31,723 bases of DNA, from the IMG/VR virus record IMGVR_UViG_3300028025_005247, positions 1-31,723 of that record. One strand, written 5' to 3'. The notes beneath the pieces are model-generated. The model did not search any database. It was not told the DNA's origin and saw only the letters and a program-made list of their open reading frames with translations. Each line of letters starts with the position of its first letter. Position 1 is the stretch's first letter. The DNA is from a virus. A program made the translations under genes and the position numbers. Positions 783-18,954 of this stretch are shown one piece after another.

Positions 783-1322
783 ATGCAAACATTATTAGAT
801 TTATACAAGATCATTAGGGAAGAGGAACACCCAAAATACATCATATTTTGCGATATGGATGGCGTGTTAGTTGACTTCGACAAAGGATACTACCAATTAA
901 CAGGTAAACCAACCCACCACGCCGATGTACAAGTTAAGAAAGAATTTTGGCGTACATTCAATAACGCCATATCATCCCAAAACACATCTGAATTCAAATA
1001 CTGGTCTGAACTCGAGTGGATGTCGGACGGAAAACAACTGTGGAGTTACATCAAAAAATACAACCCATACATCCTAACCGCACCTACATTCAATCCAGAG
1101 TCAAAAGAAGGCAAATCGCTATGGGTCACTAAACATTTAGACAACGTACGTAAATTGTACTTCAAATCATCCTCCACCAAAGCTGACTATTCACGCAAAA
1201 ACCGTATACTTATCGACGACAGAGCGACCACAATAGACGATTGGAATGCTCGTGGTGGTATAGGCATTCTACATGTAAGTACCCAAGACACAATAAAACA
1301 ACTTAAACAACTCGGACTATAA
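783..1322 (+). CDS. HAD-superfamily phosphatase/5'-nucleotidase-like
   Basis: This 179-residue protein has the HAD signature. Motif I is CDMDGVLVDF with nucleophile D24 and D26, motif II is ILTAP around T99, and motif IV is ILIDDRATTIDDW with D145/D146. The short cap region fits a 5'(3')-deoxyribonucleotidase or small-molecule phosphatase, and the family is common in T4-like phages, where a role in nucleotide pools or in trimming 3'-phosphates is usual; the substrate here is unknown. The first 16 residues precede the HAD fold and contain LYKIIREEE, a motif shared with many proteins in this window (see findings). The stop overlaps the next start by one base (TAATG), suggesting translational coupling. 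Confidence 0.85.
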   Translation: MQTLLDLYKIIREEEHPKYIIFCDMDGVLVDFDKGYYQLTGKPTHHADVQVKKEFWRTFNNAISSQNTSEFKYWSELEWMSDGKQLWSYIKKYNPYILTAPTFNPESKEGKSLWVTKHLDNVRKLYFKSSSTKADYSRKNRILIDDRATTIDDWNARGGIGILHVSTQDTIKQLKQLGL

Positions 1323-1903
1323 TGTCAGTACTAAAAAAGCAATTCGCTGAACGTGACGTACAGCGTATCCGTAACCTAGTAAAAGGTAAAAGTGGTGAAC
1401 GTACCACACACGGTATAGGTTATACTAAATCGGAAGAAGACCACGTTGAAGGTGACGTGTGGACAGAGGACGGGAAAAAATGGACCATTCGCGACGGTAT
1501 ACGTGAGAACATCACCAAATTAGACAAATTCAAAAAAGTAGCTGTTCCGTTATTCTGCCCATCGTGTAAACAAGTAATGGACAAACAACTGGATCCACAC
1601 TACTACAAATCGTATGGCACGTGTTTAGACTGCCGTACTGAATTTGAAACCAAACTCAAACTGGAAGGCAAGTGGGACGACTATGTGACCGAAGCATACA
1701 ACCAAGAAATTGACGGATACATCAGCGACTACAAAGCATATATGCAAGATGCATTAGCCGAAAGTAATGAAGGATATATTACCGAAGCTGGTGACATCCA
1801 GAAATGGGTAGGCGGTATAGACAAGGACCGTGTTGCTCAATCCATGCAGGAATCAATCGAATATTTAAACAGTTTAAAACGTAAACCAAATACCAATGAG
1901 TAA
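1322..1903 (+). CDS. Zinc-ribbon phage protein of unknown function
   Basis: The protein has 193 residues. A zinc-ribbon is visible from C79-x2-C82 and C101-x2-C104 (CPSC...CLDC) in a basic/aromatic context. The N-terminal 60 residues are charged and include a GDVWTEDGKKWTIRDG segment; the C-terminal part is acidic and probably helical, ending KRKPNTNE. I do not recognise a named family with a known role. It starts within the TAATG overlap after the HAD gene and its own end overlaps the next ORF by 8 bases, so it belongs to a tightly packed operon. Zinc ribbons of this type in phages mediate DNA or protein contacts, but nothing here decides between them. Confidence 0.7.
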   Translation: MSVLKKQFAERDVQRIRNLVKGKSGERTTHGIGYTKSEEDHVEGDVWTEDGKKWTIRDGIRENITKLDKFKKVAVPLFCPSCKQVMDKQLDPHYYKSYGTCLDCRTEFETKLKLEGKWDDYVTEAYNQEIDGYISDYKAYMQDALAESNEGYITEAGDIQKWVGGIDKDRVAQSMQESIEYLNSLKRKPNTNE

Positions 1904-2108
1904 ATTTGACGCACATAAATGGTTCAAGGCGCAGTACCTAATGGAATCACCACTTGAATTAACACTACCTGAAAAAATATATGGTCGTTTAGATTCGATA
2001 CTAATGGATTTGGAAAACGTAAACGAAAACGAGGTACCATTTGATGCACAAGCATTGCGTGAACAGGTTACCCAAACATTAGCAGTACTTAAGCAAAACC
2101 GCAAATAA
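1896..2108 (+). CDS. Small hypothetical protein (70 aa)
   Basis: A short protein starting MSKFDAHKWFKAQYL, with a predicted amphipathic helical C-terminus (ALREQVTQTLAVLKQNRK). It overlaps the end of the zinc-ribbon gene by 8 bases, is in a different frame, and has the same codon habit as its neighbours, which supports a real gene. No domain or catalytic motif is visible. It closes the first polycistron: the next gene is preceded by its own promoter-like site. Confidence 0.6.
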   Translation: MSKFDAHKWFKAQYLMESPLELTLPEKIYGRLDSILMDLENVNENEVPFDAQALREQVTQTLAVLKQNRK

Positions 2109-2122
2109 CACATACTTATACA

Positions 2123-2131
2123 TATTTATAC
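2123..2131 (+). promoter_or_regulatory. Late-promoter-like site TATTTATAC
   Basis: TATTTATA ends 15 nt before the ATG at 2145. The 17-base string ATATTTATACTAAAACA recurs at 24418-24434, before the PhoH gene. The site sits in the only sizeable gap in this stretch (2109-2144). The same core stands before most of the other transcription units in the window. Confidence 0.55.
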
Positions 2132-2144
2132 TAAAACATATATA

Positions 2145-2648
2145 ATGAACGATAATTTTGACTTACGTAAATTTTTGGTGGAAAATAAATCCATTGAAAA
2201 TATGAACCCTGTTTTCCGCCAATTGAACGAGAACACAGAAAACACAACAACCGAAACTACAGAAACAACTGAAACTACAACTGCAATCACTGAAAATGCA
2301 TTACGCGCTAAAATCCGCGAAATGGTATTAAACGAATTGGGTGGTGGTGAAAACGAATCAGAAATGATGGAGAACGAAGACGAGTTGTATGAGGCTAAAA
2401 AAGACAAAGAAGAAGAGCTACCTGCAGACGATGCTGAATTAGATCCAGACATGGCTATGGACGCAGAAATGGACGCTCCTGAAGACGAATTAACTGCTGC
2501 TGCATCTGGTGCTACTGGTGATGCTAAAGAATTAATCAACCACTTGATGACGTCATTAGATACAGCTAAAGCAATGGGTAACGAAAAATTAACCACACAA
2601 ATATTAAACACACTTAAATTCGCTATTGACCAATCAATGGCTCAGTAA
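2145..2648 (+). CDS. Acidic Ala/Glu-rich head-core-like protein
   Basis: A 167-residue, strongly acidic, low-complexity protein. The N-terminus MNDNFDLRKFLVENK resembles a T4 capsid-targeting peptide (hydrophobic-x-E: FLVE). A Thr/Glu tract (residues ~31-50) is followed by ALRAKIREMVLNEL (52-65), the recurring motif of this window. The centre is a Glu/Asp/Ala run typical of prohead core or scaffold-like proteins, and the C-terminus (KELINHLMTSLDTAKAMGNEKL) is helical. It has its own promoter-like site. Composition and motifs suggest a minor internal head or core protein; that is inference, since no named family is recognised. Confidence 0.7.
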   Translation: MNDNFDLRKFLVENKSIENMNPVFRQLNENTENTTTETTETTETTTAITENALRAKIREMVLNELGGGENESEMMENEDELYEAKKDKEEELPADDAELDPDMAMDAEMDAPEDELTAAASGATGDAKELINHLMTSLDTAKAMGNEKLTTQILNTLKFAIDQSMAQ

Positions 2649-2675
2649 TATATAAACAAACAAACAATAAAATCT

Positions 2676-2849
2676 ATGAACACAACAGAAATCCTAGACG
2701 CGATAAACGCGGCTGTAGAAGTTTTAAACACAGAACACACAAAAACAACAAAAGTATCTCGCAACAGAGCACGTAGCGCAGCAAACGACATCAAAAAATT
2801 AGCTGCTGACTTCAAACGTACATCTACTGCAGAAGACAAAGCAAACTAA
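2676..2849 (+). CDS. Small basic histone H1-like protein (57 aa)
   Basis: An open frame of 57 codons from ATG 2676 to TAA 2847-2849. The N-terminal half is a helical segment (TEILDAINAAVEVLNTEH), and the C-terminal half is basic and Ala-rich (SRNRARSAANDIKKLAADFK). This layout recalls the Hc1-type small histone-like proteins of Bacteroidota, in which an (S/T)R-x-R segment is followed by a lysine-rich helix. It lies 27 nt after the acidic gene and ends one base before the next ATG, has an A-rich leader, and uses neighbour-like codons. A DNA-binding role is inferred from charge and pattern, not shown. Confidence 0.6.
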   Translation: MNTTEILDAINAAVEVLNTEHTKTTKVSRNRARSAANDIKKLAADFKRTSTAEDKAN

Positions 2850-2850
2850 A

Positions 2851-3522
2851 ATGCCATACAAACGAATCGGAAAAACTGTATACAAAAAGTTACCCAACGG
2901 AAAATTAAAATCCGTTGGTGTATCTGATTCTGTGGACTTAGCTAAAGCACATTTACGTGCACTATATGCTGCTGAAACAAATGAATCATTAACCGAAGGC
3001 CTATCGCCCGAAGTATCCAAAAAAGCAGTAGCTATATTTAAATCCATGATTGCGGACAAACGCGATTCATTATTTAAACGATATGGTGCTGATGCTGAGA
3101 AAGTGGCTTATGGTCACGCCATAGCAAAAGCCAAACAAATTAACGAAAAACAAACCATGCAACAAACAGACAAACTCCGTGAAATGGTGCGAGCAGCATT
3201 ATCCACACCCATGGACGAAATTAACTCAACCACATATATCAACGAACGTGAATCTGTAACCGAAGACGACTGGATGCAACCAGACGACGAAAGCGACATG
3301 GCAAAATCCCAACTACACAATTTAATTAAAGACGCGCAACGTCTTGAATTCATGATTGCAGACGGTGAACAATTAGATGCATGGGTACAATCCAAACTAA
3401 CCAAAGCACAAGACTATATTAATTCAGTACACAACTATTTAGGTGGTGAACAATCAACAAAAAAACACGTGGACATTGAATTAACTGAGCGTATATTCAA
3501 CCGCATTAAAAATCGAATGTAA
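2851..3522 (+). CDS. Head-associated hypothetical protein with multi-module layout
   Basis: A 223-residue protein built of recognisable pieces. Residues 1-42 form a basic module, MPYKRIGKTVYKKL through SVDLAKAHLRALYA. Residues ~55-90 are a helical module, AIFKSMIADKRDSLFKRYGADAEKVAYGHA, resembling short modules often found in T4-like structural or core proteins. Residues 108-121 are the recurrent KLREMVRAALSTPM motif, which shares ALSTP with the N-terminus of the 4976 gene. The C-terminus is helical with an RLEFMIADGEQLDAWVQSKL segment. It starts one base after the small basic gene and its stop overlaps the next ATG (TAATG). The function is unknown; a core or internal head protein is the best guess. 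Confidence 0.7.
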   Translation: MPYKRIGKTVYKKLPNGKLKSVGVSDSVDLAKAHLRALYAAETNESLTEGLSPEVSKKAVAIFKSMIADKRDSLFKRYGADAEKVAYGHAIAKAKQINEKQTMQQTDKLREMVRAALSTPMDEINSTTYINERESVTEDDWMQPDDESDMAKSQLHNLIKDAQRLEFMIADGEQLDAWVQSKLTKAQDYINSVHNYLGGEQSTKKHVDIELTERIFNRIKNRM

Positions 3523-3989
3523 TGACTAAAGATGAACTAAAAGCACGCATTCGCGAATTAGCAAAACAGGTATACAAAGCAAAACAGCAAGATGTACTAC
3601 CTGATGTTATCGAATACGATGAATTAACCAAATTCCCTGAACTTAAAGCGGTTTTGGTTGATTTATTGACTAACGAATACGACAATTTTCTGTCATCAAT
3701 TGACTGGGTTGCCCCACGTCCAACTACATTTCGCATTAATTTAAAAAACAACCAAGAATTTTACCTCATCTACGGCACACGTAGCTGGATAGCACAAATC
3801 GAAGGTAAACGCTACTATTTGGCCAACCTACCAGAAGAGGAACGCGCAGCTGAATCTATTGCTCGCATATTAAGATATGGTACTAAAGAGGAAGCAAGCG
3901 AAACCAACGACGGATTCGACAATTTCCCCGACGAAAAACCAGCAAAAGAAAAAACACCACCAACTGAACCTGAAACACCTGAAGCGTAA
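3522..3989 (+). CDS. Hypothetical protein with N-terminal IRE motif
   Basis: This 155-residue protein begins MTKDELKARIRELAKQVYK, a version of the motif shared by many proteins here. The middle (PTTFRINLKNNQEFYLIYGTR, then GKRYYLANL) looks like a small beta-rich fold, and the C-terminus is a disordered Glu/Pro/Thr tail. It is coupled by TAATG overlaps at both ends (3522 and 3989). There is no catalytic motif. I recognise the general type from T4-like phages but know no assigned function. Confidence 0.65.
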   Translation: MTKDELKARIRELAKQVYKAKQQDVLPDVIEYDELTKFPELKAVLVDLLTNEYDNFLSSIDWVAPRPTTFRINLKNNQEFYLIYGTRSWIAQIEGKRYYLANLPEEERAAESIARILRYGTKEEASETNDGFDNFPDEKPAKEKTPPTEPETPEA

Positions 3990-4972
3990 TGGACGTTATT
4001 GAAACATTTTTACATCGCATATCATATAAATTCCCTAAGGGCTACCCAGACATGAATAGCCCACAGGATGTTACGTTATTGAACGAAATCATATCTAATT
4101 TAACTGAAGAAACACCTACATCTACTGGTGAAGACGCCAAATACGATAAATTAATTCGAGACACATTGGGTGTCAAAGAAGGAGAATCTATCCCAAAACC
4201 AAAAGGCACATATTCATTAAAAGGCGGTACATTCATGGAACAGGTAAGCCCTGGAGACATGAACGAATTCAACAAACTATACAATACAGCACCACCTAAA
4301 GTTGGCGAAGAAGAAGGCGAAACAAAGGGTGTGGGTAATGGCGAAGTAGCATTATATTGGCTATACAAATATTCAGGAAGCGACGTTAAAGTAGGTAGAG
4401 CTGGTGATGACCCAGATTTATTCATTAACGGTAAGGGCGTTGAGGTTAAAGCATATAAATCCCACACTGGTAAAATTGGTTTGGGACGATTTGGTACCGA
4501 TAAAGACAATTTACAATTACTAAGCATCATATTTGGTATTAAATCATTGAGTGAAGCATTGGGTAGCATGGAAAAAGGCCCTGCTGTTAACCCAACCAAC
4601 TTTAAAGGTACTGACCTAATACCAGCATTCGAACAAGTACTTGAACTTGAACGTATACCTGATTTAGACAGACTTGCATCACAATACAATGTATTCGCTA
4701 CTATTAAAGAAAACATAGACGCATTAAACAATACATTAAATAATCCCACCGAAGCTAAAGAAGGAGCTACGGCCATGGCTGCCAAAATGATTGAATCCAA
4801 ACTAAGTAGAAAACCAGGTAACGAAAACTACTTAGCAAACGTATTGAAAAACGGCAGCATTAAATTCTTCTACATAGACTTTGAAAAATTCGAAACCAAT
4901 GAAAACCTACTAGACAATTTCGCAGCAAAACAAAGCGCAATATATCTAGATTTCGGAAAAATATTTGGATAA
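3989..4972 (+). CDS. PD-(D/E)XK nuclease-like protein
   Basis: The protein has 327 residues. Residues 139-154 read GDDPDLFINGKGVEVK: P142-D143 and E152-V-K154 form the PD...(D/E)xK signature of restriction-endonuclease-like nucleases, with D143, E152 and K154 as the likely catalytic set. A helix with GEVALYWLYKYSG precedes it, as expected for the fold. The N-terminus (HRISYKFPKGYPDMNSPQD) is a separate short module, probably a docking or targeting tag. The start overlaps the previous stop (TAATG). It lies among head-type proteins rather than replication genes, so a role in packaged DNA, host DNA attack or repair is open. Motif-level evidence only. Confidence 0.65.
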   Translation: MDVIETFLHRISYKFPKGYPDMNSPQDVTLLNEIISNLTEETPTSTGEDAKYDKLIRDTLGVKEGESIPKPKGTYSLKGGTFMEQVSPGDMNEFNKLYNTAPPKVGEEEGETKGVGNGEVALYWLYKYSGSDVKVGRAGDDPDLFINGKGVEVKAYKSHTGKIGLGRFGTDKDNLQLLSIIFGIKSLSEALGSMEKGPAVNPTNFKGTDLIPAFEQVLELERIPDLDRLASQYNVFATIKENIDALNNTLNNPTEAKEGATAMAAKMIESKLSRKPGNENYLANVLKNGSIKFFYIDFEKFETNENLLDNFAAKQSAIYLDFGKIFG

Positions 4973-4975
4973 ACC

Positions 4976-6097
4976 ATGAACAGACTAGAAAAACTCATTC
5001 GCGAAGCACTATCCACACCACCATCCAAAGACAAATGCAATTGTGGATGCCACGACTGCGACAATGTTGGAAATCCAGGCGTAGTAATAAATGAGTCACT
5101 TAGTACACCAATAACAATGACGGAAAATCTGCGATATCACGTGGAAAATAAATTGCCACTCACAGAGAACACATTCCGTTATGGTTCAAAATCGTTCCTC
5201 GATTTATGGGCAGAGGCTCGCTACCTATACCTACGCGAAGCAATTCACGTAAACGATTTAGACAAAGAAATACTCGCTGAAACCAATTTAGGCGAATATG
5301 GTATGTTTGAAGGTAACCGTGTACCACTGGACATGCCTATGGAATATAAAAATCCATATGAACCAATACTAGAAGACATTCTGGTATATGGTAAAATATA
5401 TGAATCCGTAAATATAGACAATTCATACAAACTGGACGATATTAAATCAAACGAGGTAGGGAATGAATTTATATTCACCGATAAACACGGTATTAAACGT
5501 AAATTGTTATTTTTGTTGGGGAATAGCGTTAAACTGTTATGGTTTAACCCATCCACTCAAGAATGGACAACAGACGATATACCACGCAAATACGAAGACG
5601 AGAAAGTAATGAACACATTTGGCATGCTGCTGGTTAAAGTAATATTACCAAAATATGGTTCATTCAATTTACAAGCGTTAAGTATGGCTCGCTACCGTTT
5701 GTTTCGTGCATTAATATACAATAATCTAGATACATCCAAATACGAGATGGACTACGATGACGATACCAGAACAATCGATGTATATAAAATAGAGAACATC
5801 AACGAGGCAGACAAAAAAGACCCACCAATTGGCAAACCAAAACGTGGTGGTTCAGGCGGTAAAAAATACTACGTGTATGTCCGCAACCCAAAAACTAAAC
5901 GCGTTAAAAAGGTGTCATTTGGTGATGCTGGTGGACTTAAAGCCAAAATTAACAACCCAGAGGCACGTCGAGCATTCGCCAAACGACATGATTGTGCCAA
6001 TAAAAAAGACCGTACTAAAGCGTCATACTGGAGTTGTAACCTACCGAAGTATTCATCTTTGTTAGGTATAAAAAGTACTTTTACCGGTTTTTGGTAA
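4976..6097 (+). CDS. Head/core structural protein with N-terminal Cys cluster and conserved C-terminal basic domain
   Basis: The protein has 373 residues. It begins MNRLEKLIREALSTP, which carries an I-x-E site, followed by a compact Cys cluster C21-x-C23-x-C25-x2-C28 that probably binds metal. The middle part (~60-270) is acidic with no clear domain. The C-terminus (~290-373) is a basic module, KKYYVYVRNPKTKRVKKVSFGD through HDCANKKDRTKASYWSC, widespread in T4-like structural proteins. Its end (LPKYSSLLGIK...FW) looks like a natural terminus, so the endonuclease gene that follows has not visibly truncated it. It starts 4 nt after the nuclease gene. The exact function is unknown. Confidence 0.7.
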   Translation: MNRLEKLIREALSTPPSKDKCNCGCHDCDNVGNPGVVINESLSTPITMTENLRYHVENKLPLTENTFRYGSKSFLDLWAEARYLYLREAIHVNDLDKEILAETNLGEYGMFEGNRVPLDMPMEYKNPYEPILEDILVYGKIYESVNIDNSYKLDDIKSNEVGNEFIFTDKHGIKRKLLFLLGNSVKLLWFNPSTQEWTTDDIPRKYEDEKVMNTFGMLLVKVILPKYGSFNLQALSMARYRLFRALIYNNLDTSKYEMDYDDDTRTIDVYKIENINEADKKDPPIGKPKRGGSGGKKYYVYVRNPKTKRVKKVSFGDAGGLKAKINNPEARRAFAKRHDCANKKDRTKASYWSCNLPKYSSLLGIKSTFTGFW

Positions 6098-6126
6098 ATC
6101 CAATATTTTATAATATGTATTATCGT

Positions 6127-6777
6127 ATGACAACGATAATTTATTATTTACATAGGGGGGATAAAACTCCATTTTATGTTGGAAAAACAAAAAACCACCC
6201 TAAAAAAAGAGAAAAATCTCACCAAAATAGACTAAATGATTCTACTATTATTTTAGAAATAATAGATTCTGTAGATGATTGGAGATACTGGGAAAAACAT
6301 TATATTAATTTATTTAAACATTTAGGTTATAATCTTATCAACCGAAATTCAGGAGGTGGGGGGCCAGAAATTGTTAAAGACTCTACCAAACAAAAAATTA
6401 GTCAAGCTAACAAGGGAACCATTCACCCTATAGAAGGTAGATTATCTACTAGTAAGAAATTAACAGGTCGTAGATTGTCAAAAGAAACATGTATGAAGAT
6501 ATCCCAAAAGAAAAAAGGATCTACTACATCCAAAAAAGGAAAACCTGATGGACCCAAACCCGGGACCTCAGCAGCCCATAAAGGCAGGATCAGCCCCAAT
6601 AAAGGTAATGGAAATTTAGTAGCTTTATATACAATAGAAGGAATATATGTAAAAACATACCCTAATTATACTTCTCTAGCTATAGACCTCAATATTAATC
6701 CCGAAACCGTAAGATGCCAATTAATAGGAAAAGCAAATACTATATGTAATAAACAATATAAAGCACAGTATGTATAA
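6127..6777 (+). CDS. GIY-YIG homing endonuclease with NUMOD modules
   Basis: The catalytic GIY-YIG domain is at the N-terminus: IIYYLHRGDKTPFYVGKTK with the KKREKSH helix carrying the conserved Arg, then an E in RYWEKHYI. It is followed by NUMOD3-type helices (STKQKISQANKG, SKETCMKISQKKKG, AAHKGRISPNKG) and a NUMOD1-like C-terminal DNA-binding module (LVALYTIEGIYVKTYPNYTSLA). I chose ATG 6127 because it places the first strand of the fold at the start; ATG 6115 is possible, and the frame is open back to 6091. Codon use (AGA, ATA, TTA, ATT) differs from its neighbours, suggesting recent arrival. It sits between two head-type genes as a free-standing insert, about 216 aa long. Confidence 0.85.
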   Translation: MTTIIYYLHRGDKTPFYVGKTKNHPKKREKSHQNRLNDSTIILEIIDSVDDWRYWEKHYINLFKHLGYNLINRNSGGGGPEIVKDSTKQKISQANKGTIHPIEGRLSTSKKLTGRRLSKETCMKISQKKKGSTTSKKGKPDGPKPGTSAAHKGRISPNKGNGNLVALYTIEGIYVKTYPNYTSLAIDLNINPETVRCQLIGKANTICNKQYKAQYV

Positions 6778-7155
6778 ATGATGGATAGACTACAACAACT
6801 CATACAAGAAGCACTTAAAAACAGACCAGGTCTGTGGGTAAACATTCACACTAAACGTGAACGTGGAGAAAAACCTGCACGTAAAGGCAGTAAAGCATAT
6901 GCTACGGCCGTGAAAGCGGGTAAAGCAATCAACAAATTAAACGAAGAAACTACACCCAACCTACAATTCCCCGATGGTTTTCAACCAGCAAAATCCGTCC
7001 CAAACGGTGGTGCTATGTGTGCTAATTGCGCTAAATGGAACAAATCAACACAATTGTGCGAAGGTCAATACTATATTGACTGGCATGGAAACGGTGAAAT
7101 ACCAGCCAAACCAACAGAATATGTTTGTATTTGGTGGGTAGGCGAGCAAAAATAA
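6778..7155 (+). CDS. Small Cys-rich phage protein with LIQEA N-terminus
   Basis: The protein has 125 residues. It starts MMDRLQQLIQEALKN, a copy of the shared motif. Next comes a basic module, GLWVNIHTKRERGEKPARKGSKAY, and then a domain with C81-x2-C84, C94 and C117 (MCANCAKW...LCEGQ...EYVCIWW). The four-Cys layout suggests a bound metal or small Fe-S site, as in HiPIP-like phage domains, but this is not proven. The start directly abuts the stop of the GIY-YIG gene, showing that the insertion replaced the original leader. The function is unknown. Confidence 0.65.
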   Translation: MMDRLQQLIQEALKNRPGLWVNIHTKRERGEKPARKGSKAYATAVKAGKAINKLNEETTPNLQFPDGFQPAKSVPNGGAMCANCAKWNKSTQLCEGQYYIDWHGNGEIPAKPTEYVCIWWVGEQK

Positions 7156-7165
7156 ATCCACACAT

Positions 7166-7318
7166 ATGATTAAACTACTAGACCTGCTAAACGAAATAGT
7201 AACCGCTACACAAGTAATATGTGACAATTGTGGTCATTCATGGGATATTGTAGACGGCGGAGACGATTTATATATTTGCCATAAATGTAATCACGACAAT
7301 GCACCCGAACCACATTAA
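7166..7318 (+). CDS. Tiny zinc-ribbon protein (50 aa)
   Basis: An open frame from ATG 7166 to TAA 7316-7318. The protein starts with a short hydrophobic helix, MIKLLDLLNEIV, and then has a complete zinc ribbon, ICDNCGHSWDI ... DLYICHKCNHDN, giving C19-x2-C22 and C38-x2-C41. It sits 10 nt after the previous stop and ends 2 nt before the next ATG, with the same codon use as its neighbours. In related phages this ribbon is often found fused to the end of larger proteins; here it stands alone behind a leader helix. The binding partner is unknown. Confidence 0.7.
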   Translation: MIKLLDLLNEIVTATQVICDNCGHSWDIVDGGDDLYICHKCNHDNAPEPH

Positions 7319-7320
7319 AA

Positions 7321-7584
7321 ATGACCCCATACACCGACATAGAGACAACCGATACATATATTATTCGTGAATTCAACGAAAATATAAACCCGATTGAACT
7401 AATGTGGCATATGGACAATGAATCACGCACCATCGAAATACTAGAGGACACAAATTGGCAAATTCAGTTGGACAATAACTTGCCTACCTCACTGAAAGAA
7501 CATATATTTATACCTAAACACCACTATCACCGTTTAATTAAAGGTGATGGTACGTTACTACTAAAAATACATAAACATGAATAA
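7321..7584 (+). CDS. Small cupin-like protein
   Basis: This 87-residue protein has beta-strand-rich sequence: ELMWHMDNESRTIEILED, WQIQLDNNLPTSL, HIFIPKHHYHRLIKGDGTLLLKI. H30 with nearby acidic residues, and H70 in the final IPKHHYHRLIKG, resemble the two halves of a cupin metal site. Proteins of this kind are common as small orphans in T4-like phages and have no agreed function. It lies 2 nt after the zinc-ribbon gene and overlaps the next start by 8 bases. Confidence 0.65.
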   Translation: MTPYTDIETTDTYIIREFNENINPIELMWHMDNESRTIEILEDTNWQIQLDNNLPTSLKEHIFIPKHHYHRLIKGDGTLLLKIHKHE

Positions 7585-8260
7585 AACAGACATCCGTCGC
7601 ATTATCAAAGAAGAAATATCCCGCGCCATAACTGAAAACAAACCTAAATTTAAACAAGGTGAGCATTTCAAATACATGGGTACTGATCACGAAGTAATCG
7701 ACGACAATGGATTTATAGTTACAGCAATGACTAAAAATGGTAACCGAGTTAAGTTAAACCACAACCAACTTAAAGCCATTAACGAATCATATCCAACCAC
7801 TAAATTACCAACACCTGGAACGTATAACGTTACATTCACTACAGAACGTAGATCGTCATTTGACGAGGTAGAACTTGACGTTACCGAAAACGACATTGAG
7901 GATGCTCGCCGTAGAGGTAGTAATGGATATAATTTTTGGAGAGATATAATCCAGCCATACGCGCCATTCTTTACTAGTCAAGACCGCATTAGTACAGTTG
8001 AAAAAGTAATCGAAAATAAAAAATCAACTAAATTAAACGAAGCATCCAATCCATTTTTAGATACAGAAGAAGGTGGATATATGAGAGAATATATTAATGA
8101 TGTAGTTGAAGATAGTATGGGTGGACCTGAAGATTTAGATTTAGATTACCGTTCTGATTTTAATATAGCTTTTGATTTAGCACTAACTCGACTTCAACAT
8201 GATCATCCTGAATTAGATTTCGATACTATTAAAGCCAATAAAGAAGCTTTTTGGCAATAA
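7577..8260 (+). CDS. Hypothetical protein with IIKEE N-terminus and added acidic C-terminal domain
   Basis: The protein has 227 residues. The start MNKTDIRRIIKEEISRAITEN is one of the clearest copies of the shared motif. Residues ~25-70 form a small beta module (KFKQGEHFKYMGTDHEVIDDNG) and ~80-150 a second mixed module. From about residue 153 (position 8035 onward) the DNA switches to T-rich, AGA/GAT/GAA codons, and the protein becomes an acidic helical domain (EYINDVVEDSMGGPEDLDLDY), which suggests a later-gained domain. It overlaps the cupin-like gene by 8 bases and is the last gene before a hairpin terminator. The function is unknown. Confidence 0.6.
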   Translation: MNKTDIRRIIKEEISRAITENKPKFKQGEHFKYMGTDHEVIDDNGFIVTAMTKNGNRVKLNHNQLKAINESYPTTKLPTPGTYNVTFTTERRSSFDEVELDVTENDIEDARRRGSNGYNFWRDIIQPYAPFFTSQDRISTVEKVIENKKSTKLNEASNPFLDTEEGGYMREYINDVVEDSMGGPEDLDLDYRSDFNIAFDLALTRLQHDHPELDFDTIKANKEAFWQ

Positions 8261-8312
8261 AATACATATAGACCGATTCATAGCCGGCCGATTTAATTAA
8301 CTTATGGAAGCT

Positions 8313-8350
8313 GTGGCTCCTTATACGAAAGTATTTGGAGCCACCTTTTA
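8313..8350 (+). terminator. Hairpin terminator with GAAA loop
   Basis: GTGGCTCC (8313-8320) pairs with GGAGCCAC (8337-8344). An inner stem ATAC/GTAT (8323-8326/8331-8334) closes a GAAA tetraloop, and a U-rich run CTTTTATTTT follows. This sits in the 121-nt gap after the small-gene operon and before the 8382 gene. Confidence 0.65.
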
Positions 8351-10845: not shown

Positions 10846-11826
10846 ATGAAGAAAAATTACTTAATGGAAATCATCCGCGAGGAAATATCTAGTTACTTAG
10901 GCGAAAACGAGTCAATGTACGATTCACCACAAACACAACAGCGTGAAGTATACAGTATGTTGGATCAAGTAGAAAACTTAAAAAAGCTACGTGCTGACTT
11001 AGACGAGCAAATTGCACAATTAGAAGCTATTGCAAACACGTTTAACGTAAACGAAGATGCAGCAGCAAACAAAGCAGCAACTGACGCTCAACGTATGGCT
11101 ATTGATAAAAAAATCACCGCGTTGAATAAAACCAAACAAGAATTATCTAAACCGGGTGTTGCATTAGAAGAAGAGCAACTTGATGAAGAAACGTTAAACG
11201 AAATGCCATTCATTGGTGGTGAGAAAGGTGCAGAATTATTCGCAGCAATTAAAACAGCATCTGAGAAATTAAAAGACAAATTCCCAGACGCAACAGCAAA
11301 AGACATTTCAAAAATCATATTAAGTAAAAAGAAACGCCCTGAACTTGCACCTGAAGTAGAGGACGCGTTAATGGCACAAGAAGAAAAATATGGTGATGAC
11401 CCAAAATACACAGCTAATTTAGGTGGACCACAAACAGAAAAAGCAGTAGCTAAAGCATTGGGCGAATATGAGCCAGGACAACGTGGACGTAAAGCAACTG
11501 AAAAACCTGCAGTTGAACCAAAAGCAGCAAAAGCAAAAACAGCTCCTGCCGCTAAAGCAGAAAAATCTGCAGCCGAACCAACTACCACTACTACTGAACC
11601 AGTAGACAAAGAAGACGCAGCAGCATTAAAAGCAGCAGCAAACGTTAAAGGTGGTGCATTAACAGCTGGTGAAAAATACGGTAAGTTAAAAGCATCGTTG
11701 GACACTAAAACAGCTGAACTTAAAGCATTGGCTGGTTCAACTGACATGGAAAAACGTAAAGCATTAACCGCTGAAAAAATGCGTATTGAGGCTGCAATTG
11801 AAAAATTGAAACAAGTAAAAATGTAA
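10846..11826 (+). CDS. Ala/Lys-rich coiled-coil head-type protein
   Basis: The protein has 326 residues. It starts MKKNYLMEIIREEISSYLGEN, a strong copy of the shared I-x-E motif. Residues ~30-70 are a coiled coil (REVYSMLDQVENLKKLRADLDEQIAQLEAIA). The middle has a small module (PFIGGEKGAELFAAIKTASEKL ...AKDISKIILSKKKRPELAPE). Residues ~215-260 are an Ala/Lys/Thr low-complexity linker, and the end is again helical (AALKAAANVKGGAL, then MEKRKALTAEKMRIEAAIEKLKQ). It has its own promoter-like site. Composition and N-terminal motif suggest an internal or core head protein. The long reverse-strand open frame underneath is a compositional shadow. Confidence 0.7.
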   Translation: MKKNYLMEIIREEISSYLGENESMYDSPQTQQREVYSMLDQVENLKKLRADLDEQIAQLEAIANTFNVNEDAAANKAATDAQRMAIDKKITALNKTKQELSKPGVALEEEQLDEETLNEMPFIGGEKGAELFAAIKTASEKLKDKFPDATAKDISKIILSKKKRPELAPEVEDALMAQEEKYGDDPKYTANLGGPQTEKAVAKALGEYEPGQRGRKATEKPAVEPKAAKAKTAPAAKAEKSAAEPTTTTTEPVDKEDAAALKAAANVKGGALTAGEKYGKLKASLDTKTAELKALAGSTDMEKRKALTAEKMRIEAAIEKLKQVKM

Positions 11827-11832
11827 CAATAC

Positions 11833-12538: not shown

Positions 12539-12539
12539 C

Positions 12540-14120
12540 ATGCAAGACAATAAAAGTTTACGCCAAATAATAAAGGAGGAATATATCAAATGTGCATCGA
12601 GTCCTGCATATTTCATGAAGAAATATTGCTATATCCAGCACCCAAAACGCGGACGTATACAATTCCAACTATACCCATTCCAGGAAAAGGTACTTACCCT
12701 ATTCCAAGAAAATCCATACTCAATTGTACTTAAATCAAGACAGTTAGGTATATCTACCCTAGCATCTGGATACTCAGTATGGTTAATGCTATTCCATCAA
12801 GACAAAAATATACTTTGTATTGCCACTAAACAGGACACTGCAAAGAACATCGTAACCAAGGTGAAATTCATGTACGACAATTTACCTACCTGGCTACGCG
12901 AAAAAGACAAACCCATTGAGGACAATAAACTTACATTACGTCTTAACAACGGTTCACAAATTAAAGCAACCTCTGCATCATCCGATGCTGGTCGATCCGA
13001 AGCAGTATCTTTGCTGCTAATTGACGAGGCTGCATTCATTAACAACATCGGCGAGATATGGGCATCAGCTCAACAAACCTTAGCAACTGGTGGGGGCTGC
13101 ATCGCATTATCCACTCCATACGGTACAGGTAATTGGTTCCATCAAACATGGTTAGGCGCTGAAATGGGTGACAATTCATTCCTACCCATCAAATTACCGT
13201 GGAGTGTTCACCCTGAACGAGACCAGTCATGGCGCGATAGACAAGATGCGGATTTAGGTCCACGAATGGCGGCACAGGAATGTGATTGCGATTTCTCCAC
13301 ATCCGGTGACACTGTATTCACACCTGAGGACTTAGAGTTTTATTCCAAAACATATATCCGCGAACCACTAGAAAAACGTGGTGTCGACCAAAACCTGTGG
13401 ATATGGGAACCAGCTGACTATTCCCGTAACTACATGGTAGCAGCTGACGTTGCCCGTGGTGATGGTAAGGATTTCTCCACATTCCATATATTTGACGTTG
13501 AAACATTCAAACAAGTGGGTGAATATAGAGGTCAGTTAACCACAACTGAATTCGGACATTTACTAGTTGGTATAGCAACCGAATACAACAATGCATTACT
13601 AGCTGTAGAGAACGCATCCATTGGTTGGTCAACCATCCAAACCATAATTGATCGTGGATATCCAAATTTATACTACACACCAAAGGGATCTGCAGTTAAT
13701 TCATATTTCGACCCAGTAATGGATACAAGTAAAATGGTTGCTGGATTTAATTTAAATCAACAGAATCGCCCAGTAGCCATAGGAAAGTTCCAAGAAGCTA
13801 TGAGGGAACGAAGTGCTGTCGTATATTCATCTAGGTTATTTGAGGAAATGAAGGTATTCGTTTGGAAAAATGGCCGCGCTGAGGCACAAACCGGATACAA
13901 CGATGACCTAGTAATGGCATTTTCAATTGGTTGTTATTTAAGAGACACATCATTTAAAATGCGACAACAAGGAATGGACATGTCCCGAAGCATATTAAAC
14001 AGCATAAACACAACCACAAACCCATATGCAGGTGGATACATGAACGGTTCAAACCAAAACCAATTTAGTATACCAAACCCATACGGAAACGGTAGCGAGG
14101 ACATATCCTGGCTACTTTAA
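12540..14120 (+). CDS. 17: Terminase large subunit (gp17-like)
   Basis: The 526-residue DNA-packaging motor and nuclease. The ATPase half has a Walker A variant SRQLGIS (66-72), Walker B LLLIDEAAF (D162, E163) and a coupling motif ALSTPYG. The nuclease half has D303 in VAADVARGDGKD, E357 in AVENASIG and D455/D456 in NDDLVMAFS, the RNase H-fold acidic triad of gp17-type terminases. The N-terminus, MQDNKSLRQIIKEEYIKCA, carries the same motif as the small proteins upstream, before the start of the ATPase fold. It is close in length to T4 gp17 (610 aa) but shorter at the C-terminus. Portal follows after 21 nt with no gp18/gp19 between. Confidence 0.95.
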   Translation: MQDNKSLRQIIKEEYIKCASSPAYFMKKYCYIQHPKRGRIQFQLYPFQEKVLTLFQENPYSIVLKSRQLGISTLASGYSVWLMLFHQDKNILCIATKQDTAKNIVTKVKFMYDNLPTWLREKDKPIEDNKLTLRLNNGSQIKATSASSDAGRSEAVSLLLIDEAAFINNIGEIWASAQQTLATGGGCIALSTPYGTGNWFHQTWLGAEMGDNSFLPIKLPWSVHPERDQSWRDRQDADLGPRMAAQECDCDFSTSGDTVFTPEDLEFYSKTYIREPLEKRGVDQNLWIWEPADYSRNYMVAADVARGDGKDFSTFHIFDVETFKQVGEYRGQLTTTEFGHLLVGIATEYNNALLAVENASIGWSTIQTIIDRGYPNLYYTPKGSAVNSYFDPVMDTSKMVAGFNLNQQNRPVAIGKFQEAMRERSAVVYSSRLFEEMKVFVWKNGRAEAQTGYNDDLVMAFSIGCYLRDTSFKMRQQGMDMSRSILNSINTTTNPYAGGYMNGSNQNQFSIPNPYGNGSEDISWLL

Positions 14121-14141
14121 TAAACATAATTAAAACTATAT

Positions 14142-16040
14142 ATGGCTAACACAAATTTACTACCCCGATTAAAACGATTATTTTCTACCGATGTCATCAT
14201 CCGTAATGACGGCGGTGTAGGGTTAAAAGTAATGGACGTTAATAAAATCCAGCAATCCGGTAAATACGAAACCAATTCACTAGTGGATCGATTCAGTAGG
14301 ATATGGACCAACACCCATACATCAATATATGGTTATCAAAGTAGTTTTAACTACCAAACATTGCGTCCTACATTGTACTCTGAGTACGATGCAATGGATA
14401 CAGACGCTATCGTAGCATCAGCACTGGATATTATTGCGGATGAAAGTACATTAAAAAACGACATGGGCGAAATATTGCAGATCCGTAGCCCAGACGAAGA
14501 CATACAAAAAATACTGTACAATTTATTCTACGACGTTTTAAACGTTGAATTTAATTTATGGCCATGGGTTAGAGGTATGTGCAAATACGGTGACTTTTTC
14601 CTTAAACTAGAAATATCTGAAAAATTCGGTGTATACAACGTAATACCATTTAACGCATTCCACATTGAAAGACAAGACGGATACGATTCAGACAACCCAT
14701 CCGGAGTACGTTACAAATTCCAACCAGATGGCGTTTCCTCACCATCTAACTATGGCTACTACAATGTACCTAATTCAGCTAATCAAGCAAACGAGGTATA
14801 TTTTGATAACTACGAAATGGCCCATTTCCGCCTATTAACCGATACTAACTTCTTACCTTACGGTAGATCGTATTTGGAACCAGGCCGTAAATTATTCAAG
14901 CAATATACAATGATGGAGGATGCTATGTTGATTCACCGTATTGTAAGAGCACCTGAAAAACGTATATTCTACATTAATGTAGGAAATATTGCTCCTGCCG
15001 AAGTGGAAAACTTCATGCAGAAGACCATTTCAAAAATGAAACGTACCCCGTACATTGACCAACAAACGGGTGACTACAACTTGAAATACAACATGCAAAA
15101 CCTACTTGAGGACTTCTACATCCCAGTACGTGGTAATGACCAAGCAACAAAAATCGACACTACTAAAGGTTTAGACTATGCTGGAATAGAGGATGTATCG
15201 TACCTACGTGACAAATTATTTGCTGCGTTAAAGGTGCCGAAAGCATTCATGGGTTACGAGAAAGATTTAACTGGTAAAGCAACATTAGCCGCTGAAGATA
15301 TTCGTTTTGCACGTACAATTTCACGTATACAAAGCATCATGGTATCCGAATTAACTAAAATTGCTTTAGTACATTTATATTCACAAGGGTATACTGACGA
15401 GAACTTAACCAATTTCGAATTATCATTAACCAACCCATCAATCATATTTGAACAAGAGAAAATCGCATTACTTAAGGAAAAAGTAGAGTTAGCTAATTCA
15501 ATGATGGAGAATAAATTACTCCCATCTGATTTCATCTACGAACATATATTCCAGTTCAGTGAAGATAAATTTGATGAGTACAAAGACTTGATAATGCAAG
15601 ATGCTAAGCGTAAATTCAGACTAGCACAAATTGAGAACGAAGGAAACGATCCACTTGAAACTGGCAAGTCATATGGTACACCACACGATTTAGCATCGTT
15701 ATATGGTAGAGGTAGATATGAAGATACGCAACTACCTGATGGATACGACGAGAAAAATCCACTTGGACGCCCTGAAGAAAAAGTAACCAACCGCAATACA
15801 CAAGACAGCCCATTTGGTAAAGATTTACTTGGCGCTATGGGTATGAAAAAAGACAACGACGAATCAGATTCAATTAAACCTACATACAAAGGTGGATCTC
15901 CGTTAGCACTTGAATCAAAAAAGACACCAAAACGTAACGCTGATTTACTTAACCAAATCAACAAAAACAAAAAACGCATCATATTCGAGTCGGATGTCAA
16001 CGGGAATTCGCTACTAGATGAATCACAAATACGAGAGTAA
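14142..16040 (+). CDS. 20: Portal vertex protein (gp20-like)
   Basis: The 632-residue dodecameric portal through which DNA is packaged and to which the neck attaches. Diagnostic segments include YSEYDAMDTDAIVASALDII near residue 80, the FMQKTISKMKRTPYID region near 300, LLEDFYIPVR (321-330), and YLRDKLFAALKVPKAFMGYE with KATLAAEDIRFARTISRIQ, all matching gp20-type portals. The last ~100 residues (LGRPEEKVTNRNTQ to the end) are a charged, probably flexible tail. It is longer than T4 gp20 (524 aa), mainly because of this tail. It lies immediately after the terminase, the classic 17-20 order with the tail genes absent. Confidence 0.93.
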   Translation: MANTNLLPRLKRLFSTDVIIRNDGGVGLKVMDVNKIQQSGKYETNSLVDRFSRIWTNTHTSIYGYQSSFNYQTLRPTLYSEYDAMDTDAIVASALDIIADESTLKNDMGEILQIRSPDEDIQKILYNLFYDVLNVEFNLWPWVRGMCKYGDFFLKLEISEKFGVYNVIPFNAFHIERQDGYDSDNPSGVRYKFQPDGVSSPSNYGYYNVPNSANQANEVYFDNYEMAHFRLLTDTNFLPYGRSYLEPGRKLFKQYTMMEDAMLIHRIVRAPEKRIFYINVGNIAPAEVENFMQKTISKMKRTPYIDQQTGDYNLKYNMQNLLEDFYIPVRGNDQATKIDTTKGLDYAGIEDVSYLRDKLFAALKVPKAFMGYEKDLTGKATLAAEDIRFARTISRIQSIMVSELTKIALVHLYSQGYTDENLTNFELSLTNPSIIFEQEKIALLKEKVELANSMMENKLLPSDFIYEHIFQFSEDKFDEYKDLIMQDAKRKFRLAQIENEGNDPLETGKSYGTPHDLASLYGRGRYEDTQLPDGYDEKNPLGRPEEKVTNRNTQDSPFGKDLLGAMGMKKDNDESDSIKPTYKGGSPLALESKKTPKRNADLLNQINKNKKRIIFESDVNGNSLLDESQIRE

Positions 16041-16052
16041 CACCTCTCCATA

Positions 16053-16060
16053 TATTTATA
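16053..16060 (+). promoter_or_regulatory. Late-promoter-like site TATTTATA
   Basis: This exact core lies in the 40-nt gap after the portal gene, ending 21 nt before ATG 16081. It would drive the prohead core genes. Confidence 0.5.
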
Positions 16061-16080
16061 ATTAAACTAAACTATATAGA

Positions 16081-16944
16081 ATGAATCTCATAAAACATTC
16101 GAAGTATAAAAATACGGGAATATTATTTGAACTATTGGTCCGTCAAATTACATCTGACACATTAGATGGTAAGGATTCACCAGTGAAAGGCCTACTAAAA
16201 AAATATTTCGTAAAAACCGAGTTAGGGCGTGAGTATAAACTATATGAAACGTTATTGAAAAAGACATCATTAACGGAAACCAAAGCAAATATAGTAGTAA
16301 ATACATTAGCTGAGTCATCTACATCGTTAAATCGTGGTGCTATCAAACGCCAAAAATACAATTTAATTAAGGAAATCAAGGAACACTACGATTTAGAAAA
16401 ATTCTTCAACCACAAATTACCTAACTACAAAGTATTTGCTGCATTCTACACATTACTAGAAACATATAATACACCACCATTATCAGTTGATCCTGAACAG
16501 ATAATTAACAACAAAGTAACTATACTTGAACATTTAACGGCGGCACCAATTACTGAGAAAAAAGTAAAAGACGACGTAATGGATGCGTTTATTGGTTCGG
16601 ATAAAGATGTACGTTTATTAGCATATAGAATGTCATTGGATAAATTCAATAGTAAATACAACAATTTCGATTCCAACCAAAAAGCAGTACTTAAAGAATA
16701 TATTAATTCAGTAGACAACAGTACACGTTTACGTGAATTTTACATTGACAAAACAAACGAAATCAAAACTCAACTAGTTGAAATTAACCAACTTACTAAA
16801 AACCCAGTAACCAAAATCAAAATTGACGAAATAATCAATATGATTACTGTACCTAGTAAGACACACAAAATCAAAGACAACAATATAGTTGACCTGTTGC
16901 AATATTACGATTTAGTAAAAGAACTGGAACATGCTAACAGATAG
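16081..16944 (+). CDS. Conserved head-region hypothetical protein (287 aa)
   Basis: A helical, Lys/Asn-rich protein starting MNLIKHSKYKNTGILFELLVRQ, an opening I recognise only as typical of the gene next to portal in non-enterobacterial T4-like phages. No enzyme motif is visible. Helical segments around residues 55-110 and 180-240 suggest an assembly factor. Its position between portal and core/protease genes points to prohead assembly. It overlaps the next gene by 14 bases. The function is unassigned. Confidence 0.7.
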   Translation: MNLIKHSKYKNTGILFELLVRQITSDTLDGKDSPVKGLLKKYFVKTELGREYKLYETLLKKTSLTETKANIVVNTLAESSTSLNRGAIKRQKYNLIKEIKEHYDLEKFFNHKLPNYKVFAAFYTLLETYNTPPLSVDPEQIINNKVTILEHLTAAPITEKKVKDDVMDAFIGSDKDVRLLAYRMSLDKFNSKYNNFDSNQKAVLKEYINSVDNSTRLREFYIDKTNEIKTQLVEINQLTKNPVTKIKIDEIINMITVPSKTHKIKDNNIVDLLQYYDLVKELEHANR

Positions 16945-17392
16945 AATACGCGAGATAGTTAAAGCTAAACTAAAAGAAACTAGTGCCACCTCACAGGGTG
17001 GTGCCTCATTTTCACCCGGTGCCGGTGAGCAATACGCTACACCTAAAGCATTTAACAAAAACAAAAACGCAAAAGGCGAAGCAACTAAATACTACTACAA
17101 ATTGGGATATAAGCCAGTACCGGATAAAATCAAGGGATCTGGTTTGGAAGTAAAACAGTTATTTGAAACTGAACCTATCAACGAAACCAGCGACTTCCAA
17201 CGCGAGCGCATAGCTGCGTTCGACGACATAGAAACGCGTTTAAACGCGCTACATCCACTTGTATCCAACGCAAAAAATGAAACCGCAGAATACTACAATG
17301 AACATCCCGGATCATACGACATATATAAACCAACCGAAATGATTTTAAGTTACCTTAAAAACATTGAACAACTATTAACTGCACCAAAATGA
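16931..17392 (+). CDS. Small prohead/core-like protein sharing a peptide with the capsid N-terminus
   Basis: This 153-residue protein starts MLTDRIREIVKAKLKETSAT. A putative prohead-protease site LKE16|T17 is followed exactly six residues later by QGGASFSPGAGEQYA (22-36). The major capsid protein shows the same peptide (QGGATFSVGQGEQWA) at the same distance from its own predicted cleavage site. Residues ~37-75 are a Lys/Asn-rich module (PKAFNKNKNAKG..., YYYKLGYKPVPDKIKGSGL), and the C-terminus is helical (FQRERIAAFDDIETRLNALH). It overlaps both neighbours (14 and 4 nt). It is probably a minor head/core protein in the place of T4 gp67/gp68. Confidence 0.7.
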   Translation: MLTDRIREIVKAKLKETSATSQGGASFSPGAGEQYATPKAFNKNKNAKGEATKYYYKLGYKPVPDKIKGSGLEVKQLFETEPINETSDFQRERIAAFDDIETRLNALHPLVSNAKNETAEYYNEHPGSYDIYKPTEMILSYLKNIEQLLTAPK

Positions 17393-18954
17393 AAAAAACA
17401 CTACAAGACCAATACTTATTACTTAAGGAAGGAAAAGGACACAAAGGTGTATTCTTAACTGAAGCAAAACGTCAATTCCCAAACCTTATCCCTGTTAATG
17501 CTGATGTTGAATTAACTACACGCATATTAAAAGACAAAAATGTCATTAGCGAAAATATAGTTGGTTTACAAGCAATCAACCAAATGATTCCTACTAAAAA
17601 AGAGTCATTTGAAACTGCATTTGAATCGTTCTTGAAAGAAGCAAAGAAAAAAGAAGCGACTGACAAAGCCGAAGCAAAAACCGTATCCAAATCCGTTGAA
17701 GACAAGCAAGAACACGCGCATGACAACGCAGACGAGAAAAACATCGACAACGTTATATTTGACCAAGTAATGATGGGTTACTACGCGGAAATGAAAGACC
17801 CTAAAAACGCGGACAAAACAATGGAGGAATTAAAAGCCATTGTACTTAAAAACCTACAAAAAGATCCTATCCACTATACTAAAGAAGGACAATTCGGCGT
17901 TAAAGAATTAGGTTACACAACTGAACATCCAGGTTTAGGTACACCAAAAGAAGTAAAAGGAAAATATGCATCTGGCGGTATGGAACCAGTTAAGTTAAAT
18001 GAGTCAATGGATGAAGCATACCAAATGACTAATGTTAATGTTCACAATACAAAAACAGGAGGGAAAATATTCGTACCAGAAAAATTACCAATATTACCAA
18101 TAATCATTAAACGATTTGGTGAACATATGGTATTTGATGCTGCTAATAATATAATGTATATTTCTGCTATATTGTATAACAACCTAATAAAAGGATATGC
18201 AGATCAACCAGCAATTAAAAAACTAATAATGGACATACCACCAATGGTTAAACAATTGCTAAACAAAACACAAAACTATGGTAAACCTAAAACGTTGGAT
18301 GGTTATAAATTTAAACAATATTTCCCATTTGCGGGTGATGTAGAAATAGCTGAAGACGATAAATTCAATAAAGACGGTACTAAAAAATACTATTCAAAAG
18401 GTAATTACCTATTCCAAAACCTAAACAAACAAAACGCCCTAGAAGAAGATATGTCAATCAACGAATCAAAGTTACGCGGAATCATTCGCTCAATCATCGC
18501 TGAAGAAATGAGCAAAACACCATTAAACGAAAATATCCACAAACGTTTAAAAGAAATTGACGGTGAAGTAGCAAACGAAGTAATCCAGTCTAAACTTAAC
18601 AAAGTACAGGAAGAAATCGAAAAACGTACAAACCAATTAAACATGATTGACGAGAACGAAGACTTGAAAGACTTAACAGACGGTAAGAAAATTAAAGCAC
18701 TTCAGAAAGAAATCAAGTTACTAGAAAAAGCGAAAGCAAAACTTGAAAAATCCATGAAGGGCAAGAAAAAAGAAGTACTTGACGAAACTGAAAACGTAGA
18801 CGAAGCATCACCAGAATACATGGCTGCTAAGCAAGACGCTGAAGATCGTTACAATGAAGGAGAAGATATCGACTCAATCATAGCTGACTACCCTCAATTC
18901 AAACGCGAATTATACAATGATATAATTGGTGGATTTGAAGGAATGGATTACTAA
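17389..18954 (+). CDS. Large prohead core-like protein with central insert
   Basis: The protein has 521 residues. The N-terminal ~200 residues are a helical acid/lysine-rich core type (LTTRILKDKNVI, ESFETAFESFLKEAKKKEA, MMGYYAEMKDPKNADKTMEEL). Residues ~205-345 (about 18000-18425) are a more ordered, hydrophobic block (LPILPIIIKRFGEHMVFDA, NIMYISAILYNNLI) with a different codon style, apparently inserted. The C-terminal part begins with a second copy of the shared motif, INESKLRGIIRSIIAEEM (~357-374), then a coiled coil (LNKVQEEIEKRTNQLNMIDE, IKALQKEIKLLEKAKAKLEKS) and a short C-terminal module (AAKQDAEDRYNEGEDIDSII). It ends just before the protease gene, so a prohead core protein is the likely role. 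Confidence 0.7.
   Translation: MKKTLQDQYLLLKEGKGHKGVFLTEAKRQFPNLIPVNADVELTTRILKDKNVISENIVGLQAINQMIPTKKESFETAFESFLKEAKKKEATDKAEAKTVSKSVEDKQEHAHDNADEKNIDNVIFDQVMMGYYAEMKDPKNADKTMEELKAIVLKNLQKDPIHYTKEGQFGVKELGYTTEHPGLGTPKEVKGKYASGGMEPVKLNESMDEAYQMTNVNVHNTKTGGKIFVPEKLPILPIIIKRFGEHMVFDAANNIMYISAILYNNLIKGYADQPAIKKLIMDIPPMVKQLLNKTQNYGKPKTLDGYKFKQYFPFAGDVEIAEDDKFNKDGTKKYYSKGNYLFQNLNKQNALEEDMSINESKLRGIIRSIIAEEMSKTPLNENIHKRLKEIDGEVANEVIQSKLNKVQEEIEKRTNQLNMIDENEDLKDLTDGKKIKALQKEIKLLEKAKAKLEKSMKGKKKEVLDETENVDEASPEYMAAKQDAEDRYNEGEDIDSIIADYPQFKRELYNDIIGGFEGMDY

Follow-up and report, generated by a model that had tools for sequence, protein, structure and literature searches.

The predicted proteins of a 31,723-nucleotide stretch of viral DNA (IMG/VR record IMGVR_UViG_3300028025_005247, positions 1 to 31,723; hereafter the window) carry short peptide tags at the N-termini of otherwise unrelated sequences. 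The window represents part of the genome of a T4-like phage, with genes for gp17, gp20, gp21, a gp22-like protein and gp23, and the tags recur in related phages. They are real, N-terminal, portable between proteins and largely confined to viral contigs; they are linked to the prohead protease gp21 and end in its cleavage rule, L/I-x-E (PMC9026906; [LI]xE below), and the protein bodies behind them avoid that rule. The explanation that best accounts for these features, with a probability that we put at about 0.88 from sequence comparisons, is capsid targeting followed by gp21 cleavage, as with the T4 capsid-targeting sequence (CTS). This family of T4-like phages appears to use address tags on dozens of unrelated proteins for loading into the head, trimming and injection, and the system is a greatly expanded variant of that in T4.

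Docking partner, packaging, cleavage and injection are steps that we infer. Through its hydrophobic Phi-x-x-Phi face, the tag helix would dock on the prohead core and so carry the protein into the forming head, where activated gp21 would cut the tag after [LI]-x-E, often, in two of the four tag families, after a second L/I-x-E about ten residues further on. The cut would free the mature body to be injected with the DNA at infection. All four families would do the same job and be swapped between bodies.

Enrichment of the motif at N-termini in the window

The first-pass annotation had proposed that a short motif tags at least ten unrelated proteins of the window as a capsid-targeting and prohead protease signal. 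All eleven motif strings that it quoted are found in the named genes, eight of them within the first 20 residues. Using a fixed definition ([LIVMF]xx[LIVMF][LIVMF]xE, starting within the first 18 residues), the motif is N-terminal in eight of 37 window proteins – those of the genes at 783, 2145, 4976, 6778, 7166, 7577 and 10846, and the terminase – whereas the internal rate predicts 0.93 (binomial p 2.8e-6). Among 2000 per-protein shuffles the mean was 0.98 matches and eight was never reached.

The N-terminal enrichment thus holds, but the list itself changes in both directions. For the 2145 gene a copy described as internal is indeed present, but its N-terminal tag (MNDNFDLRKFLVE) had been overlooked, as had two others, that of the 7166 gene (MIKLLDLLNE) and, at 1896, a weaker one (MSKFDAHKWFKAQYLMES). 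The copies at 3522 and 16931 exist as strings but are weak matches, off the core spacing, and the internal copies in the 2145, 2851 and 17389 genes lie amid further [LI]xE sites and alone are no evidence of tagging. The terminase copy is no instance of a tag: relatives of gp17 read IKQIVAQEYIKCAxDPAYFMKKY and IKQIVAQEYIKCAKDPAYFMKKYCYIQHP at this position, and it is the native, conserved N-terminal helix of gp17. Terminase as cargo is ruled out by this homology, and the objection to capsid targeting that had been drawn from the terminase falls away because the copy is this helix.

Four interchangeable tags in related phages

The closest terminases to that of the window are those of Flavobacterium phage immuto (58%) and Microcystis phage Mel-JY01 (51%), with an uncultured 484-kb phage (44%) and Rhodothermus phage RM378 (34%) more distant. 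About 150 related viral contigs were fetched through gp17 and gp21, the motif playing no part in selection. Upstream of gp17 the loose motif is N-terminal in 126 of 593 proteins, representing 53 of 167 clusters; this is roughly tenfold the internal rate, with about 2% expected. Among proteins encoded downstream of gp23 the count is nine of 350. Under the strict form Lxx[IV][IVL][KRQ]E the counts are 47/593 and 0/350 respectively.

Reading of the relatives' sequences shows four interchangeable types of N-terminal tag. Tag A (MKKSELKQIIKEEISKVLNE; MKKSxLKxIIKEEI) spans 20 residues, tag B (MxNFDLKKFLVENKLTxNSKLLxE; FDLKKFLVENKL) about 22, and tag C (MIKLxDILxEI) 10–11; the fourth, tag D, reads QKLAGIITE or RMQKLAGIITES. 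Of 84 tag B matches, 77 lie inside the first eight residues. A DNA search pattern for residues 1–14 of tag A finds at least 120 stretches in viral contigs versus none for a control with the same codons in shuffled order. Bacterial and archaeal genomes totalling 257 billion bases contain only three such stretches, each from the same uncultured bin; the three contigs (L642, L643 and L644) are probably phage contigs binned with a bacterium. Beyond the pattern, 74 non-redundant proteins with tag A are conserved up to residue 20 (L18 77%, E20 77%) and not thereafter. This second L-x-E lies outside what was searched for, and conservation of tag B likewise runs on to residue 22, with an [LI]xE.

The tags are common to otherwise unrelated proteins, 376 tagged proteins falling into 217 body families. 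About 20 body families occur with more than one tag type, of which some groupings may reflect low-complexity similarity; a clear swap is seen in an ADP-ribosyltransferase-like family (GKQVGTLYHFT), which has tags A and C. Position-specific scoring, with thresholds chosen for 0.1% false positives per tag, a level at which weak matches include some false ones, gives 12 tagged proteins in immuto and 13, 20, 23 and 19 in four uncultivated genomes of 149–160 kb, where 0.9 are expected. Many of the genes are within about 25 kb upstream of gp17, and others are elsewhere.

Among annotated phages, tblastn with tag B matches only the immuto phages, and tblastn with the 20-residue tag A matches none, probably because low-complexity filtering masks the tag. 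The exact tag A DNA pattern is absent from immuto, Mel-JY01, T4 and the 484-kb phage (LR756508), and position-specific and regular-expression scans find tag A variants in immuto and LR756508. In the latter a run of tag-A-like genes (L373 30446-41608; e.g. MKIQEQKLRGIIKEEIKKIVNE) is located about 10–20 kb downstream of gp17. Mel-JY01 has a weak overall N-terminal enrichment (12/4464 versus 92/52899 positions), which indicates that the tags are not equally strong across relatives. A small conserved protein, MKxDxLKKLIKEAVKEAIxEEL, is encoded at immuto 81525, where it adjoins baseplate genes, at the start of contig G018, at G015 79958 and at G037 132673; its tag A score is weak, and it may be an ordinary ortholog and not a tag carrier.

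Correspondence to the T4 capsid-targeting sequence

Mutations in the T4 CTS, MKTYQEFIAE, have shown that targeting depends mainly on residues 4 and 7 and cleavage on residues 8 and 10 (PMC9026906), and the tag is sufficient to bring a foreign protein into the head (PMC9958956). Tag C has L4, I/L7, L8 and E10 at the positions of these determinants, and in tags A, B and D this spacing recurs in a shifted position (LKQIIKE, LKKFLVE and LAGIITE, respectively). The Phi-x-x-Phi-Phi-x-E spacing is that of T4 IPII and IPIII (YQEFIAE), Alt (ITELFDE) and gp24 (INELLRE). A mixed alignment of 111 tagged proteins has only M1, L4 and E10 nearly invariant (numbering of the first row). All tags end in the gp21 rule, A and B mostly with the second site. 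The features that mark a T4-type CTS at the sequence level – length and N-terminal place, the determinants, the [LI]xE end, unrelated bodies, gp21 and a footprint of its rule – are found together here.

The resemblance to the T4 system (IPI, IPII, IPIII and Alt) extends to a short N-terminal propeptide, its spacing (in IPII, IPIII and Alt) and its [LI]xE end, one tag on unrelated bodies, a gp21 homolog in the genome and, for the IPs, bodies poor in [LI]xE. There are also several differences. First, there are four tag families without clear sequence identity to MKTYQEFIAE. Second, 12–23 genes per genome are tagged, whereas T4 has a handful, and they are clustered upstream of gp17. Third, tags A and B are 20–22 residues long, with two cleavage-rule sites. 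The ten-residue propeptide of T4 gp24 (MAKINELLRE) has the same spacing and is nearest in look to tag C (MIKLxDILxE), but gp24 is a shell protein whereas the tagged proteins here are putative cargo. Head and ejection proteins of phiKZ and SPN3US also have N-terminal propeptides, with several sites each, that a gp21-related protease removes, and some of the proteins are injected; however, their rules are S/A-x-E (phiKZ) and A-x-E (SPN3US), and their propeptides are often longer than 100 residues and mostly not shared between proteins.

Two further T4 proteins have similar N-termini: gp61.1 (L160, NC_000866 18966-19130), annotated only as hypothetical, starts with the CTS look-alike MKTFKEFIKED, and gp2 (L161, 76061-76885 of the record) starts with MAIFQIINES, in the same spacing. 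Loading of various proteins by a CTS has already been proposed for T-even phages (PMC9026906; PMC12373910); a prior description of tags A–D was not found in the literature searched, which mostly did not include subscription journals and preprints.

Association with gp21 and depletion of its cleavage rule

A gp21 profile, which matches T4 gp21 itself (PDB 5jbl, E 2e-31), matches 21 of 48 records with tag A and 27 of 49 with tag B or C (48/97 in all), among them every one of the 14 tagged records that reach 150 kb; it matches none of 36 control records, which were retrieved using a pattern unrelated to the tags. Control records have a lower average length; when only records of 28 kb or more are counted, the profile matches 42 of 72 tagged records and 0 of 13 controls (p 8e-5).

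The bodies of tagged proteins carry a footprint of the protease. In 531 non-redundant tagged bodies (residue 36 onwards) [LI]xE occurs 608 times and the reverse, E-x-[LI], 923 times, versus 4132 and 4116 in 1822 untagged proteins of the same contigs (p 8e-14). In an unbiased scan of 1300 combinations of residue pair and gap, the strongest depletion is that of IxE (z -7.7; observed/expected 0.66 in tagged and 1.13 in untagged proteins), followed by that of LxE (z -5.7; 0.89 and 1.22). The ratio for E-x-[LI] does not change (1.19 versus 1.17), a result that speaks against an origin of the depletion in composition, disorder or secondary structure. The depletion is present for every tag type and in bodies shorter than 400 residues; when each family is represented once, the [LI]xE ratio is 0.664 (99% interval 0.55–0.79), and 1000 length-matched draws of untagged proteins have a minimum of about 0.845, always above the tagged value. 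Such bodies are expected if they must survive an active prohead protease. T4 provides a positive control, with no [LI]xE in the bodies of IPI, IPII and IPIII and an abundance of it in the degraded core proteins gp22, gp67 and gp68 (observed/expected 2.35). The scaffold of this clade and its neighbours are also [LI]xE-rich (gp22-like 1.46, 17389 family 1.63, 16081 family 2.78), and by this richness the 16081 and 17389 proteins are probably core proteins that undergo degradation; the 16081 family is in this respect likely similar to T4 gp67/gp68.

Alternative explanations

The suggestion of T4-style targeting with gp21 cleavage after I-x-E is thus supported at the sequence level by the CTS spacing, the second [LI]xE, the co-occurrence of gp21 and the depletion in bodies. 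An uncleaved docking tag, a helix that holds proteins in or on the head by binding scaffold or capsid and of which [LI]xE is merely a part, deserves to be weighed against it. A Phi-x-x-Phi face alone would explain targeting, and a T4 CTS with Asp at position 10 still targets while its processing is lost (PMC9026906), but a docking helix predicts neither the depletion of IxE and LxE in bodies nor the second [LI]xE that closes tags A and B and is independently conserved, and we consider it improbable. Slightly less probable still is a signal unrelated to the head, addressed to another phage structure, the host membrane, a replication site or a chaperone. Tagged genes do lie outside the head cluster (immuto 1803, 24569 and 25061), but their concentration just upstream of gp17 and near absence downstream of gp23, the association with gp21 and the footprint of the gp21 rule all speak against it.

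A DNA or RNA element such as a translation enhancer or recombination site, incidentally translated, would also give a shared stretch at gene starts with bodies shuffled behind it. Synonymous codons vary widely within the tags, however (ATT, ATC and ATA 40, 15 and 12 times for Ile10), so that selection acts on the peptide, and four different peptides occupy the same place; an element at the DNA level was rejected as very unlikely, on the codon variation. Chance, given that amphipathic helices are common at N-termini and that about 2% of proteins would have the loose motif as background, is already refuted by the window (p 3e-6), the strict-form counts and the codon-shuffled control.

Several observations weigh against targeting with cleavage. 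No virion proteomics was found in the literature searched, and no cleaved N-terminus has been observed. Tag C has its sharp boundary exactly where its search pattern stops, so that this edge does not count as independent evidence. Several window copies (3522, 16931 and 1896) are weak, a few tagged genes are remote from head genes, and gp21 was not found in three tagged records of 105–118 kb, perhaps fragments. The depletion is statistical and not absolute, as the tagged 10846, 4976 and 2145 proteins have [LI]xE in their bodies; it is not seen in the few bodies above 400 residues, and T4 Alt is neutral (0.97).

Tags, copies and neighbouring genes of the window

The positions of the tags, of the other motif copies and of the head genes are listed in Table 1. 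Homologs of the HAD protein have tag C (MIKLxDLLxE) at the same place, so that the tags differ while an invariant Glu lies shortly ahead of the domain, and an AlphaFold model (mean pLDDT 90, about 74 over the tag) predicts the tag as a separate helix, residues 2–15, preceding the HAD fold. The 2145 gene is comparable to one at G015 99990, with an N-terminal tag B and an internal SKLRERVKAEILSALKE, and the body of the 6778 gene bears tag C in contigs L519 and L583. Homologs of the 10846 protein in relatives have the motif in 23 of 23 cases. Relatives of the 16931 gene read MDKLRQMVKDALSE and MDKLKEIIRKKLKE. After its tag the 16931-17392 protein continues as SQGGASFSPGAGEQYATP, like gp23 just past its presumed cleavage site (NQGGATFSVGQGEQWAG), and from this similarity the two may share a capsid binding site.

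Table 1. Tags, motif copies and head genes in the window
Feature	Position	Strand	Sequence or remarks
Tag of HAD/NT5C deoxyribonucleotidase	783..821	+	MQTLLDLYKIIRE, core LYKIIRE; HAD domain from residue 17
Weak tag-B-like N-terminus	1896..1946	+	MSKFDAHKWFKAQYLME, followed by S; [LI]xE at residue 17; immuto 125241 reads MENNFDIHKWQAKFLKES
Tag B, 2145 gene	2145..2183	+	MNDNFDLRKFLVE
Internal tag-A-like segment, 2145 gene	2295..2336	+	NALRAKIREMVLNE, after ITE
Internal copy, 2851 gene	3172..3201	+	KLREMVRAAL
Weak tag-A-like N-terminus, 3522 gene	3522..3557	+	MTKDELKARIRE; core spacing not exact
Tag-A-like N-terminus, 4976 gene	4976..5005	+	MNRLEKLIRE; more [LI]xE sites to residue 64
Tag-A-like N-terminus, 6778 gene	6778..6810	+	MMDRLQQLIQE, on RPGLWVNIHTKRERGEKPARKGS protein
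Tag C, 7166 gene	7166..7195	+	MIKLLDLLNE, on 50-residue zinc-ribbon-like protein
Full tag A, 7577 gene	7577..7636	+	MNKTDIRRIIKEEISRAITE; both [LI]xE sites present
Full tag A, 10846 gene	10846..10905	+	MKKNYLMEIIREEISSYLGE
Terminase gp17	12540		
Terminase copy	12558..12578	+	LRQIIKE; conserved gp17 helix, no tag
Portal gp20	14142		
Presumed prohead core protein	16081..16944	+	[LI]xE-rich family
Tag-like N-terminus, 16931 gene	16931..16978	+	MLTDRIREIVKAKLKE, then segment resembling mature gp23 N-arm
Internal copy, 17389 gene	18472..18510	+	LRGIIRSIIAEEM; gene for [LI]xE-rich presumed core protein
Prohead core protease gp21	18972..19604	+	conserved segments GELDHP, GVSSRG
gp22-like scaffold	19806..20834	+	assigned from position and composition; [LI]xE-rich
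Major capsid protein gp23	20855..22522	+	88-96% of relatives have N-terminal [LI]xE at residues 9, 36 and 52

Elsewhere in the window, inspection by eye identifies two GIY-YIG-like genes (6091-6777 and 22688-24391), probably homing endonucleases, the second directly after gp23. An open frame with long Ala-rich repeats (ARIADVDAEETRALAAEATLSASLATEVA), fibre-like in appearance, starts at 29750 and runs past the window end at 31723.

Proposed cargo and significance

Most tagged bodies match no Pfam family, and functions are assigned for few. The matches include zeta-toxin-like kinases, an Acb1-like anti-CBASS protein (L614, E 1.9e-7), a thioesterase and nucleotidases; that to an ADP-ribosyltransferase is weak (E 6e-4). 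In T4, Alt and the IPs are injected proteins for host takeover and anti-restriction (PMC9958956, PMC12373910), and the functions predicted here appear to agree with this role. It is probable that the tags constitute a general delivery system, in which four or more capsid signal peptides, interchangeable with one another, load into the virion a dozen or two proteins per genome for host takeover and anti-defence, a set that changes fast and includes the ADP-ribosyltransferase-like proteins, the zeta-toxin-like kinases, the Acb1-like protein and the nucleotidases, and through which hundreds of genes of unknown function become recognisable as injected cargo.

How T4 selects certain proteins for its scaffolding core has been called a mystery to this day (PMC9958956). 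Hundreds of natural tags that follow a single spacing rule and are swapped among many bodies define a targeting code and make it testable, and the combination of tag and [LI]xE footprint offers prediction, by sequence only, of which uncharacterised phage proteins are injected. Proteins so predicted are a likely source of anti-defence and host-takeover functions. If the interpretation is true, a mechanism known from a few T4 proteins would extend to a large and mostly uncharacterised cargo.

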